A stretch of 44,618 bases of DNA, from the NCBI GenBank assembly GCA_947378245.1, contig CANCJF010000007.1, positions 1 to 44,618 on the forward strand. The letters run 5' to 3'. The translations under genes were made by a program, and so were the position numbers. Within the stretch, counting starts at the first letter, position 1, and each line of letters begins with the position of its first letter. Below, piece by piece: positions 5,327-9,836 of this stretch. The notes under the pieces are model-generated. The model had not been told where the DNA came from. It did not search any database and saw only the letters and a list, made by a program, of their open reading frames with translations. Origin of the DNA: Bacteroidota bacterium (lineage in GTDB: Bacteria > Bacteroidota > Bacteroidia > Flavobacteriales_D > Crocinitomicaceae).

Positions 5327-5803
5327 TTATTTAAATGAAATAACAATTTTTGTTTCCTTTATCGTCGCCAATGGAAGAGTTTCCTCTTCTTCAATGGTTA
5401 CTTTCTTTTTTGTTTCTGGACTTTTCTCGGTACGTGTTGTTTTAACTACAATTTTTTCTTCTGTAGCCTCCAACAAAACACCTTCTTTTTCCTTACCATC
5501 TTTCAATGTAACTTCTACTGTTCTTCCGATGTTTTTAACATATTGAGGAAGTACGCGTAAAGGTTTATCCAACCCAGCCGATGAGACATGTAACTCGAAA
5601 TCTTGCTCTTCACGATCTAAATTGTGTTCAACATTACGTGAAACAGAAACACAATCATCGATTGCAACATACCCTTCAAACTTGTCTAACTCTAAGTTTA
5701 TCACAAATTTAGATGAGATAGAGATTGCAACAATGAACAGACCTCTATCTAATTCATCGATGCGTTCTTGAGCTAATTTTCGTACTAATTCTTTTGTAAT
5801 CAT
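5327..5803 (-). CDS. rimP: Ribosome maturation factor RimP
   Basis: RimP assists 30S ribosomal subunit maturation. The protein has 158 aa, the usual size. It carries the RimP signature: an acidic N-terminal domain, then YVAIDDCVSVSRNVEHNLDREE and FELHVSSAGLDKPLRV (compare the family motif EVSSPGLDRPL), then a C-terminal Sm-like region (VEVTLKDGKEKEGVLLEATEEKIVV). It is first in the conserved rimP-nusA-infB operon. The ATG at 5803 lies only 5 nt after the U-tract of a strong hairpin and has no visible Shine-Dalgarno sequence. That makes leader-level control of the operon likely. Confidence 0.96.
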   Translation of the reverse strand: MITKELVRKLAQERIDELDRGLFIVAISISSKFVINLELDKFEGYVAIDDCVSVSRNVEHNLDREEQDFELHVSSAGLDKPLRVLPQYVKNIGRTVEVTLKDGKEKEGVLLEATEEKIVVKTTRTEKSPETKKKVTIEEEETLPLATIKETKIVISFK

Positions 5804-5816
5804 CTGCTAAAAAAAA

Positions 5817-5836
5817 GAGGGGATAATCATCCCCTC
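5817..5836 (-). promoter_or_regulatory. Terminator-like hairpin in the rimP leader (possible attenuator)
   Basis: GAGGGGAT and ATCCCCTC form a perfect 8-bp stem with a 4-nt loop. On the minus strand it is followed directly by eight T residues and then AGCAG-ATG, the rimP start. This is the shape of an intrinsic terminator, but it lies between the operon promoter (5863-5892) and the first gene. Either most transcripts stop here unless something intervenes, or the stem limits access to the rimP start. Confidence 0.7.
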
Positions 5837-5862: not shown

Positions 5863-5892
5863 CAAATGTACACTTTTTTTTTGAATTACAAA
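5863..5892 (-). promoter_or_regulatory. Promoter of the rimP-nusA-infB operon
   Basis: On the minus strand, TTTG (5892-5889) is followed after 18 nt by TACATTTG (5870-5863), a full match to the Bacteroidota -33/-7 arrangement. Transcription would begin near 5857, giving a leader of about 55 nt that contains the hairpin. Confidence 0.7.
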
Positions 5893-5913
5893 ATTATCTT
5901 TAAGCTAAAAAAT

Positions 5914-5930
5914 ATTACAAAAATATTACG
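5914..5930 (+). promoter_or_regulatory. Candidate KdpE-type operator upstream of the kinase gene
   Basis: ATTACA, 5 nt (AAAAT), then ATTACG form a direct repeat with 11-bp periodicity, the spacing that OmpR-family regulators use. Fifteen bases (TTACAAAAATATTAC) recur exactly upstream of kup at 7791-7805. From memory, the E. coli KdpE site uses similar hexamers (TTTATA and TTTACA) with a 5-bp spacer. Function is inferred. Confidence 0.5.
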
Positions 5931-5961
5931 AGAGTATCATTTATCAAGGAAAATCAAAAAA

Positions 5962-5969
5962 TATATTTG
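5962..5969 (+). promoter_or_regulatory. -7 box for the kdpD-like/kdpE operon
   Basis: TATATTTG matches TAnnTTTG exactly, 48 nt before the ATG at 6018. No good -33 TTTG is visible, which would fit a promoter that needs an activator. The candidate operator starts 48 bp upstream of this box. Confidence 0.5.
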
Positions 5970-6017
5970 TTATAAATTCATTTAGAATTACAAAATATTT
6001 TAACTAAAAATAAACCA

Positions 6018-7115
6018 ATGCACTTGAAATTAAAAACACAATATTTGTTAGCTTTTAGTTCTGTGATTTTATTAACTTTTTGCTGTCTTTTATTTCAAAA
6101 CTATTTAAATTATAAATCTGTTGCGTTTATTTTATTGCTTGGTGTATCCATAATTGCAATGCTTTGTGAAATAGCTCCAGTATTAATTACTGCAACACTT
6201 AGTGCTTTTACTTGGAATTTTTTCTTTATAGAACCTAAGTATACATTTAGTGTTGGCAGTACGGAAGATCGTTATTTGCTTATGATTTTTTTTATTATTG
6301 CCCTGATTAATGCTGTATTATCTAATAGGATAAAAAAATATGAAAAACAAGTTCGACAAAAAGAAGATGAGCAACGAGTTATTCAACTCTATAATACACT
6401 TTTCAATTCACTTTCTCATGAATTAAAAACACCAATCTCAACAATTTTAGGAGCTACCGATTCATTAAAAGACAACAATTTACAAATAAGTCCATCGAAT
6501 AAAGAATTATTAATCGATGAAATATTTAAAGCCTCATTACGATTAAATACCCAAGTTGAAAACTTACTAAATATTTCTCGTTTAGAGTCTGGTGTACTTC
6601 AATTAAAACTAGAATGGATACAGATGGAAGATATCATATATTCAGCCATAAATAAGTTAGATATTGATAATCAAACACATATGATTGATATTCAATTGCC
6701 TGACAATTTACCTTTATACAAATTAGACAAAGGATTAGTGGAGCAAATATTACACAATCTTTTGGTTAATGCAATTAGTTATACTCCAGAATATTCAACG
6801 ATAATAATCAGTATTCAAAATGAACGAATTGTACTAGATTCACACAAAGAACATTTTTCTGATAAATTATTGATTTCAGTAAGTGATAATGGTGAGGGTT
6901 TACCAGAATATGCATTAACTACTATTTTTGATAAATTTTACCGTATTGAAAGTAATAAATCTGGTGGCACAGGTTTAGGATTATCCATTGTAAAAGGTTT
7001 TGTAGAAGCACACCGAGGTAATGTTCATGCGTATAATATAGAACCTAAAGGAGCTTGCTTTGCAATCGAAATCCCTTGTGAAACGTCTTATTTAAACAGA
7101 TTAAAAAATGAATAA
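6018..7115 (+). CDS. KdpD-like sensor histidine kinase, short form with DUF4118 membrane domain
   Basis: This membrane sensor kinase has 365 aa. About four hydrophobic segments occupy residues 8-103 (for example YLLAFSSVILLTFCCLLF and LLMIFFIIALINAVL). The intervening AFTWNFFFIEPKYTFSV matches the DUF4118 four-helix domain of KdpD. The HisKA domain follows with the phospho-acceptor in SLSHELKTPIS (His134), then the HATPase domain with N-box NLLVNAISYTPE, G1 SDNGEGLP and G2 GGTGLGLSIVKGF. It lacks the large cytoplasmic N-terminal KdpD sensor and Usp domains of the ~900-aa E. coli protein. The stop overlaps the next gene by 8 nt. Its position before kup suggests K+ or osmotic sensing, which is inference; no kdpFABC genes are in the window. 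Confidence 0.9.
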   Translation: MHLKLKTQYLLAFSSVILLTFCCLLFQNYLNYKSVAFILLLGVSIIAMLCEIAPVLITATLSAFTWNFFFIEPKYTFSVGSTEDRYLLMIFFIIALINAVLSNRIKKYEKQVRQKEDEQRVIQLYNTLFNSLSHELKTPISTILGATDSLKDNNLQISPSNKELLIDEIFKASLRLNTQVENLLNISRLESGVLQLKLEWIQMEDIIYSAINKLDIDNQTHMIDIQLPDNLPLYKLDKGLVEQILHNLLVNAISYTPEYSTIIISIQNERIVLDSHKEHFSDKLLISVSDNGEGLPEYALTTIFDKFYRIESNKSGGTGLGLSIVKGFVEAHRGNVHAYNIEPKGACFAIEIPCETSYLNRLKNE

Positions 7116-7785
7116 GCATACAGTTTTAATTATTGATGATGAAGTACAAATACAAAAACTTTTATCCATCACTTTAGAATCTGCAGGTTATAAGGTTGTT
7201 TCTGCTTTCTCCTTGAAAGATGGAATTTCAATAACAGGAAGCCATCCACCGGATTTAATTTTATTAGATATTGGGTTACCCGATGGTTCAGGTCAGGATG
7301 GACTTAAACGACTAAGAGAATGGTATCAAGGTCCTATCATAATGCTAACTGTTATGAACGATGAAAAAAATATCATTCATGCCTTTGATAATGGTGCCAA
7401 TGATTTTTTAACAAAACCATTTAGGACTGGTGAATTATTAGCAAGAATGAGAAGTTTATTAAAATTAAGTACTCAAATTAAACCGGAAAATGTATTTGTT
7501 TCAGGGAATCTAAGAATAGATTATGTTGGGCGAATCCTCCGTAAAAATGGAGAAATAATCAAACTTACTGCTACTGAATATAATTTATTAGCGATTCTAT
7601 CCAAGTATGAAGGTAGGATTGTCACTCAAGCATTTTTACTTAAAGAAGTTTGGGGCCCATCATACCAAAAAGAATCCCATTACTTACGTATTTTCATTGC
7701 TCAATTAAGAAAAAAAATTGAAGACAACCCTGCATTGCCTAAACACATAATTACTGAAGCAAGTATTGGATACAGATTTATGTAA
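7108..7785 (+). CDS. KdpE-like OmpR-family response regulator
   Basis: A 225-aa two-component regulator. The receiver domain shows the acidic pair D10-D11, the phospho-acceptor D54 in DLILLDIGLPDG, T81 and K103 in FLTKPF. The C-terminal winged-helix domain contains KLTATEYNLLAILSKYEGRIVTQ and ends LRIFIAQLRKKIEDNPALPKHIITEASIGYRFM, the usual KdpE-type ending. It overlaps the kinase gene by 8 nt and is therefore the cognate regulator. A matching 6+5+6 direct repeat lies before the kinase gene and before kup, so I infer that it regulates both transcription units. KdpE is the best subfamily match, but only family-level assignment is certain. Confidence 0.92.
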   Translation: MNKHTVLIIDDEVQIQKLLSITLESAGYKVVSAFSLKDGISITGSHPPDLILLDIGLPDGSGQDGLKRLREWYQGPIIMLTVMNDEKNIIHAFDNGANDFLTKPFRTGELLARMRSLLKLSTQIKPENVFVSGNLRIDYVGRILRKNGEIIKLTATEYNLLAILSKYEGRIVTQAFLLKEVWGPSYQKESHYLRIFIAQLRKKIEDNPALPKHIITEASIGYRFM

Positions 7786-7789
7786 ATCT

Positions 7790-7806
7790 TTACAAAAATA
7801 TTACAT
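7790..7806 (+). promoter_or_regulatory. Candidate KdpE-type operator upstream of kup
   Basis: TTTACA, 5 nt (AAAAT), then ATTACA lies directly after the regulator's stop codon and 71 nt before the kup ATG. It shares TTACAAAAATATTAC with 5915-5929. A weak -7 box (TTTATTTG, 7849-7856) starts 59 bp downstream, one helical turn more than the 48 bp seen at the kinase promoter. Confidence 0.5.
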
Positions 7807-7877
7807 AATCAATATTTTTCCTGACATTTTACAGATAGAAAAAATCATTTATTTGAGTGTAACAAAAAATCAACATT

Positions 7878-9836
7878 ATGACACAAGATTTACACTCAAA
7901 AAAAGTAACCGTAGCTTCACTATTAGTAGCACTTGGTATTATTTATGGCGACATTGGGACGAGCCCATTGTATGCTTTACGAGCAGTCATCGGAGAACGA
8001 ACGATAGACATGGAATTAGTATTTGGAGGTTTGTCCTGTATTTTTTGGACACTCGTATTTCAAACAACAATCAAGTATATTTGGTTAACTCTTCGAGCTG
8101 ACAACAAAGGCGAGGGTGGAATCTTTTCTTTATACGCTCTTGTTTCTAAGCATGGAAAAAAATTAATTATACCAGCGATATTAGGAGCTACGACATTACT
8201 AGCTGATGGAATAATCACCCCTCCTATTTCAGTTGCTTCTGCTATTGTAGGTCTAGGGTTAGTAAAAGGTTTGGAAAACACGTTTCAACCTGGAAATTCA
8301 TTAACAATTGGGATTGTAATCACCATTATATCCATTCTGTTTTTCTTTCAACGATTTGGCACACAATCGATAGGTAAATTTTTTGGGCCAGTTATGACAG
8401 TATGGTTTTCCATGCTATTTATTACAGGAATAAATCAAATATATAATCATCCAGAAGTATTAAATGCATTAAATCCAATATATGCTTATAATTTGTTAGC
8501 GCATTATCCTCAAGGATTTTGGTTACTAGGTGCTGTATTTTTATGTACAACAGGTGCTGAAGCTTTATATTCAGATTTAGGACATTGCGGCATAAAAAAT
8601 ATACGAATCACCTGGATTTTTGTTAAATTAAGTTTAATCATAAACTACCTAGGACAAGCATCTTGGGTGATTTATCAAGGTCAATCTCACTTATCTGGAA
8701 GAAATCCATTTTTTGAAATCGTACCTGATTGGTTCTTAATCCCAAGTATTCTAATTGCAACAGGTGCGACAATCATTGCATCCCAAGCTTTGATAAGTGG
8801 TTCTTACACACTCATCAGCGAAGCGATGAACTTAAATTTTTGGCCTCGTGTATCTGTCAGACAACCAACAGAAATTAAAGGGCAAATCTATATCCCAAGC
8901 GTGAATAACATTTTATGGTTCGGTTGTATTTTAATGATATTATATTTTAAAGAGTCTGCGCATATGGAAGCTGCTTATGGTTTCTCTATCACCATAACGA
9001 TGATGATGACCACCTTATTGTTAGGCTATTTCTTGAAATATGAATTAAAATGGAAAATGACGGTCATTGTTTTGTTTTTATTTTTCTTCGGAATTATAGA
9101 ATTTGCTTTTTTTATTGCTAACGTGGCAAAAATCAAGGAACGTTGGATGTTTTTATTTTTCGAATTATTCATTTTTATGACTATGTATATTTGGTATTAC
9201 GCGCGTAAAATCAATAACAGGTTCACTAGTTTTGTTGACTTGGGTAAATACACAGAAATGATTAATGAGTTAAGTTCAGATGAAAGTATTCCAAAATTTT
9301 CGACGCATTTAGTTTACCTTTCAAAAGCAGATAAAAGAGATGAAATTGAAGATAAAATCATCAAGTCCATATTTTCAAAAAAGCCTAAAAGAGCTGACGT
9401 CTATTGGTTTTTACATATCAATCGTATGGAAGAGCCCTATACATTAAACTATGATGTGTCAGAACTTGTAGAAGATAAAATCATCAAAGTCAATTTAAAT
9501 ATTGGATTTAGGTTGCAGCCCAAAGCAGAATTATATTTTAAGAAAATTGTACGTGATCTTGTTGCAAATCAAGAATTGAACTTACACTTACGTCCTGATG
9601 GTTCTACAAAATACAACCCTGAACCAGACTTTAAGTTTATTGTAATTGAAAAATTTGTATCTGTGGAAAACGAATTCAAACTTCGAGAAGGGTTGATTAT
9701 GAACACCTATTTCTTTTTGAAAAATTTAGGTCAACGAGATGAAAAAGCCTTTGGTTTGGACAAAAGCGATGTAGTAGTAGAGCAATTTCCTATTGTATTT
9801 ACTCCCATTGATCATGTGGAATTAGTAAGAAAATAA
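7878..9836 (+). CDS. kup: Low-affinity potassium transporter Kup
   Basis: Kup imports K+ with protons across the inner membrane. The 652-aa protein begins with the family signature SLLVALGIIYGDIGTSPLYAL, followed by NKGEGGIFSLYAL and LLADGIITPPISVASA. About twelve hydrophobic segments span residues 15-450. A soluble C-terminal domain of about 200 residues ends with EQFPIVFTPIDHVELVRK. Length and motifs are typical. It lies 92 nt downstream of the KdpE-like gene on the same strand. The intergenic region holds a candidate operator and a weak -7 box, so kup probably has its own regulated promoter. It ends 7 nt from the convergent nuclease gene, with no clear terminator. Confidence 0.97.
   Translation: MTQDLHSKKVTVASLLVALGIIYGDIGTSPLYALRAVIGERTIDMELVFGGLSCIFWTLVFQTTIKYIWLTLRADNKGEGGIFSLYALVSKHGKKLIIPAILGATTLLADGIITPPISVASAIVGLGLVKGLENTFQPGNSLTIGIVITIISILFFFQRFGTQSIGKFFGPVMTVWFSMLFITGINQIYNHPEVLNALNPIYAYNLLAHYPQGFWLLGAVFLCTTGAEALYSDLGHCGIKNIRITWIFVKLSLIINYLGQASWVIYQGQSHLSGRNPFFEIVPDWFLIPSILIATGATIIASQALISGSYTLISEAMNLNFWPRVSVRQPTEIKGQIYIPSVNNILWFGCILMILYFKESAHMEAAYGFSITITMMMTTLLLGYFLKYELKWKMTVIVLFLFFFGIIEFAFFIANVAKIKERWMFLFFELFIFMTMYIWYYARKINNRFTSFVDLGKYTEMINELSSDESIPKFSTHLVYLSKADKRDEIEDKIIKSIFSKKPKRADVYWFLHINRMEEPYTLNYDVSELVEDKIIKVNLNIGFRLQPKAELYFKKIVRDLVANQELNLHLRPDGSTKYNPEPDFKFIVIEKFVSVENEFKLREGLIMNTYFFLKNLGQRDEKAFGLDKSDVVVEQFPIVFTPIDHVELVRK

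Follow-up and report, generated by a model that had tools for sequence, protein, structure and literature searches.

The window, by which we mean the whole stretch of 44,618 nucleotides analysed here, carries on its forward strand a sensor kinase gene (6018..7115, 365 aa), a gene for a KdpE-like response regulator of the OmpR family (7108..7785, 225 aa), and kup, which encodes a K+ transporter of 652 aa (7878..9836). The kinase has the Pfam domains DUF4118, HisKA and HATPase_c; these are the only domains found in it, with no N-terminal KdpD or Usp domain. The regulator was assigned by family models, structures and alignment: KdpE (NF007820) is the best of all NCBIfam models at 216.5 bits, and the solved structures that match it best are those of KdpE. 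Because the equivalog cut-off of 325 is not reached, the protein is KdpE-like and is not filed as KdpE itself. Kup matches K_trans (488.7 bits) and K_trans_C (65.3 bits), both over the Pfam cut-off, and scores 376.8 bits with the NCBIfam kup equivalog, under its cut-off of 539.6. The genome is a single draft of 2.98 Mb and 92% completeness, in which KdpA was not found. It does contain, on contig C5, a further KdpE-like regulator that has a kinase of its own and is 57% identical to that of the window, and, on contig C158, a second kup.

Two similar 17-bp direct repeats lie before these genes. Box 1 (ATTACA-AAAAT-ATTACG, 5914..5930, + strand) is the proposed operator of the kinase-regulator operon, on the basis of its sequence, its uniqueness in the genome and the boxes of relatives; box 2 (TTTACA-AAAAT-ATTACA, 7789..7805, + strand) is the proposed operator of kup, on the basis of its sequence, its uniqueness and its alignment with TTTACAAAATCTTTACG, the standard box that the related genome G020 has ahead of kup. 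An earlier note on this DNA had placed box 1 correctly and box 2 one nucleotide too far along, at 7790-7806. The 15 identical bases that it counted between the two 17-mers are there (15/17), and the distances that it gave from repeat start to -7-like box, 48 and 59 bp, are as we measure them, with a difference of 11 bp. The Bacteroidota -7 element, TAnnTTTG, occupies positions -12 to -5 (PMC9723704). The -7 element of the kinase-regulator operon is TATATTTG (5962..5969, + strand), 31 nt after the end of box 1, and a -7-like element of kup, TTTATTTG (7848..7855, + strand), follows the end of box 2 by 42 nt and has five of the six consensus positions.

Across the 2.98 Mb genome the sequence WTTACAAAAATATTACR is matched exactly just twice, each time at the window locus, on the same strand and 1.9 kb apart, and it is thus not a product of chance; at one mismatch there are no matches, and at two mismatches there are 24, compared with a total of 19 for the reversed control. 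The looser pattern WTTACRN5WTTACR occurs twice in the window where 0.29 occurrences are expected, and 2 of 100 shuffles reach two. The genome-wide scan with it that the earlier note proposed shows no enrichment (22 matches, and 22 in the reversed control); the loose pattern is weak evidence, with no power as a genome-wide test.

In the comparison of orthologous intergenic regions, also proposed earlier, KdpE-type boxes are found in the same places in orthologs and paralogs alike. The KdpE-like loci of relatives have TCTTTAYAAAATCTTTAYR or close variants upstream, in which 5 bp separate two TTTAYA half-sites. Such boxes precede the kinase gene as well as kup or whichever gene comes next, both in the relatives and in the C5 paralog. 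The same succession of kinase, regulator and kup genes is seen in G020, G043, G057, G021, G024, L023, L025 and L028. The regulators of G020 and G114 are 68% identical to that of the window (the G020 Kup is 85% identical), and in both genomes the standard box TTTACAAAATCTTTAY lies 31 nt from the -7 element of the kinase operon, matching box 1. A search for exact CTTTAYAAAATCTTTAY, the core of this box, over 240 family genomes returns 15 matches, of which 14 precede a kinase-regulator, post-regulator, kup or TrkH gene (kup in G020, G114, G131 and G024; TrkH in G031) and one falls within an unrelated coding sequence of G012; the reversed control gives a handful. Some of the KdpE-like loci examined, for example L190, L257 and L261, have no recognisable box. 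In the window's own genome, a search for standard boxes at up to two mismatches finds exact copies only as the two C5 boxes, the rest being at the level of the reversed control, and the second kup, on C158, has no box upstream. We also note that the same box precedes TrkH in L202 and L245 (the latter by eye) and genes for BBP2-type porins in L182 (by Pfam), L183 and L254 (both by eye), and that G020 has a gene of 320 aa (L115 4347-5333), judged Fic-like by eye, between those for the regulator and Kup, with the kup box after it, beside kup.

The box-to--7 spacing noticed earlier proves to be a conserved, helically phased rule. Counted from the end of the box to TAnnTTTG, it is 10, 31 or 41/42 nt in 29 of 31 boxes (shuffles give a mean of 1.8 and a maximum of 6), with the offsets picked after seeing these data and with L201 and the kup boxes of L120 and L121 added to the set by hand after inspection; leaving aside near relatives, 21 of 22 boxes conform. 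In unused loci from other families of the class the spacing is kept in 17 of 19 boxes (shuffle maximum of 5), and all four further boxes without TC also fit; this scoring covers the 18 of 26 loci whose helix was read, and the other eight (L248, L253, L255, L258, L262, L263, L265 and L267) are included in the residue comparison. A spacing of 10 nt is characteristic of most kinase promoters and 31 nt of the kinase promoters of the window, G020 and G114, while 41/42 nt is that of kup and other post-regulator promoters. The window boxes are at 31 and 42 nt and those of the nearest relatives, G020 and G114, at 31 and 41 nt; the three classes of distance differ by nearly whole helical turns. Each window box is in a fixed, phased position relative to its promoter, as expected of a KdpE-type operator. 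Promoters of the 42 type seem to have a weaker box as well, which ends 10 nt short of the -7 element, with both boxes clear in L249 and identified by eye in others. The matching place in the window is taken by CTGACATTTTACAGATA (7821..7837, + strand; ends 10 nt before the -7 element), a possible degenerate second box that was picked by eye and is uncertain.

The arrangement resembles that of KdpDE in E. coli, where KdpE half-sites TTTATA and TTTACA are separated by a 5-bp spacer (PMC3264566); the earlier note had given these hexamers and their spacing rightly, and they can be seen before kdpF in E. coli MG1655 DNA. The window boxes share with the operator of kdpFABC the two 6-bp half-sites and the 5-bp spacer. 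With the -7 element at -12 to -5, the distal box of 42-type promoters, and so box 2, spans approximately -71 to -55, which is inside the region from -72 to -50 covered by KdpE in E. coli (PMC3264566). The same study gives the KdpE residues that were mutated and those superposed on PhoB, and finds R193, R200 and T215 to be required for DNA binding (PMC3264566); the window regulator and its homologs keep the equivalents of all three. The DUF4118 membrane kinase is a further likeness, and as a separate histidine-kinase chain it resembles the split KdpD of Bacteroidota, in which that chain is apart from the N-terminal serine-kinase part; the paper describing this treats control of kdpFABC, and kup is not its subject (PMC11018627). 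There are also differences. The predicted target here is kup rather than kdpFABC, and although spacing and repeat architecture fit a TTTAYA-like operator, three of the four window half-sites are of the ATTAC type and start with an A, whereas the first-base T is invariant in kdpFABC sites (PMC3264566). Because Trk and Kup of E. coli are described as constitutive (PMC5458449), control of kup by this system would represent a rewiring.

We consider it highly likely that the window repeats are operators of the KdpE-like regulator encoded at 7108-7785, which would activate its own operon and kup, and they very probably belong to a promoter layout controlling Kup that is conserved across Bacteroidota. 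The link between the repeats and the KdpDE-like system, offered as an inference in the earlier note, gains support from the boxes of relatives, the spacing and the conserved residues. The split-KdpD kinase would phosphorylate the regulator, probably at low K+, and two 6-bp half-sites 11 bp apart would accommodate a head-to-tail dimer on a single face of the DNA, which is how KdpE binds in E. coli. Binding of the phosphorylated regulator to box 1 would activate its own operon, and binding to box 2 would activate, rather than repress, kup; the boxes lie 31 and 42 nt before -7 elements of the TAnnTTTG type, distances that differ by one helical turn.

The window boxes nonetheless depart from those of relatives, and in the same way. 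In each of 19 boxes from relatives a T opens the 3′ half-site, and the two bases ahead of it are a T (19/19) and a C (18/19), an invariance that is partly by construction as these boxes were chosen by likeness to the standard box; in both window boxes the second base before the 3′ half-site, the first before it and its own first base are A, T and A, so that the operator half-site has changed from ATCTTTAY to AATATTAC. When the window is scanned with a matrix built from the relatives' boxes, box 2 ranks third and box 1 is lost at rank 828, which marks them as diverged rather than typical. Differences are also apparent in the recognition helix. In 71 Bacteroidota homologs the position of E. coli H190 is a glutamine in 70, that of I194 is a valine in all 71, and that of the glutamine of VLTQ is a histidine in all 71, while the window regulator has H, I and Q respectively and is E. 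coli-like at all three. Its residue change is derived, since in a tree the regulator nests with those of G020 and G114 (support 100), both of which have standard boxes and helix. The base preceding the 3′ half-site is a T for regulators with a histidine at the H190 position (E. coli and Alicyclobacillus) and mostly a C for those with a glutamine.

These observations suggest that the DNA-reading residues of the regulator and its operators have diverged together from the Bacteroidota standard, leaving the pair partly or wholly insulated from the C5 regulator, a reading to which we give somewhat less than an even chance. The shared change in both boxes and the nesting among standard regulators speak for it; but co-divergence would rest on one event in one Bacteroidota lineage, the branch leading to the window regulator is long (0.6) and other parts of the protein have changed too, some regulators with a glutamine (L183, L266) have an A before the 3′ half-site, and G114, though it likewise possesses two regulators, has retained the standard box for the one linked to kup. 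If true, this would be a small natural case of regulator-operator co-evolution, in which a kup-dedicated system has become insulated from its KdpE paralog, and the diverged pair provides a testable hypothesis as to which helix residues read which operator bases. As judged from sequence comparison, the system is best explained as a rewired variant of the known KdpDE, with possible regulator-operator co-divergence.

The boxes could be bound by a different regulator, such as the second KdpE-like protein of this genome, that of C5, or the neighbouring regulator could repress rather than activate, the relatives' boxes at 10 nt from the -7 element covering the -33 region, a possible site of action for a repressor as well; we regard both as unlikely. 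The C5 operon (L116) is, like that of the window, a kinase-regulator pair, but it has its own standard boxes and a standard helix and continues with an exported protein rather than kup, and the two window boxes differ from the C5 boxes alike. A box of the 42 type, moreover, is located where the activator site is in E. coli (PMC3264566). In C5 and two of three congeners (L117-L119) one box precedes the kinase gene and another directly follows the regulator gene, their distances to the -7 elements being 10 and 41/42 nt. The gene following the C5 regulator (L116 7773-8360), which is conserved in the congeners L117-L119, encodes an exported protein that is about 190 aa long and matches no Pfam family; in C5 and all but one of the three congeners a standard box with the 41/42 nt spacing stands ahead of this gene, which is a candidate K+-responsive gene.

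That the repeats are simply a chance similarity of AT-rich intergenic DNA is very improbable: the loose pattern is no commoner genome-wide than its reversed control and box 1 has a low score with the matrix from relatives, but the two exact copies in 2.98 Mb fall at one locus, each before a gene start, and their positions agree with those of the orthologs' boxes.

Binding by the neighbouring KdpE-like regulator remains the preferred reading. The window differs from the kinase-regulator-kup operons of G020, G114, G043, G024 and others in its boxes and helix. Gene order is the same in most of these, and they have a box before the kinase gene, kup or both, 10, 31 or 41/42 nt from the -7 element; theirs are TCTTTAYAAAATCTTTAYR boxes paired with H, Q and V in the HTH, in contrast to Q, H and I in the window. 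Whereas KdpE of E. coli serves the Kdp pump, a single promoter grammar appears to connect the KdpE-like system to kup here and to TrkH and a BBP2 porin in relatives. A rule of the form box, 10, 31 or 41/42 nt, TAnnTTTG would permit K+-responsive promoters to be predicted in Bacteroidota from sequence. Our searches of the open-licence literature turned up neither a report that KdpE controls kup in Bacteroidota nor a description of this box/-7 grammar.

Two further features of the region before the kinase gene may be mentioned. The sequence GAATTACAAAAT occurs twice more, at approximately 5884-5895 and 5987-5998, flanking box 1; these copies are possibly extra half-sites or AT-rich chance. Farther upstream, the leader of a divergent gene (5327-5803), RimP-like by its position before nusA and infB, contains a perfect inverted repeat, GAGGGGAT-AATC-ATCCCCTC, at 5817-5836.
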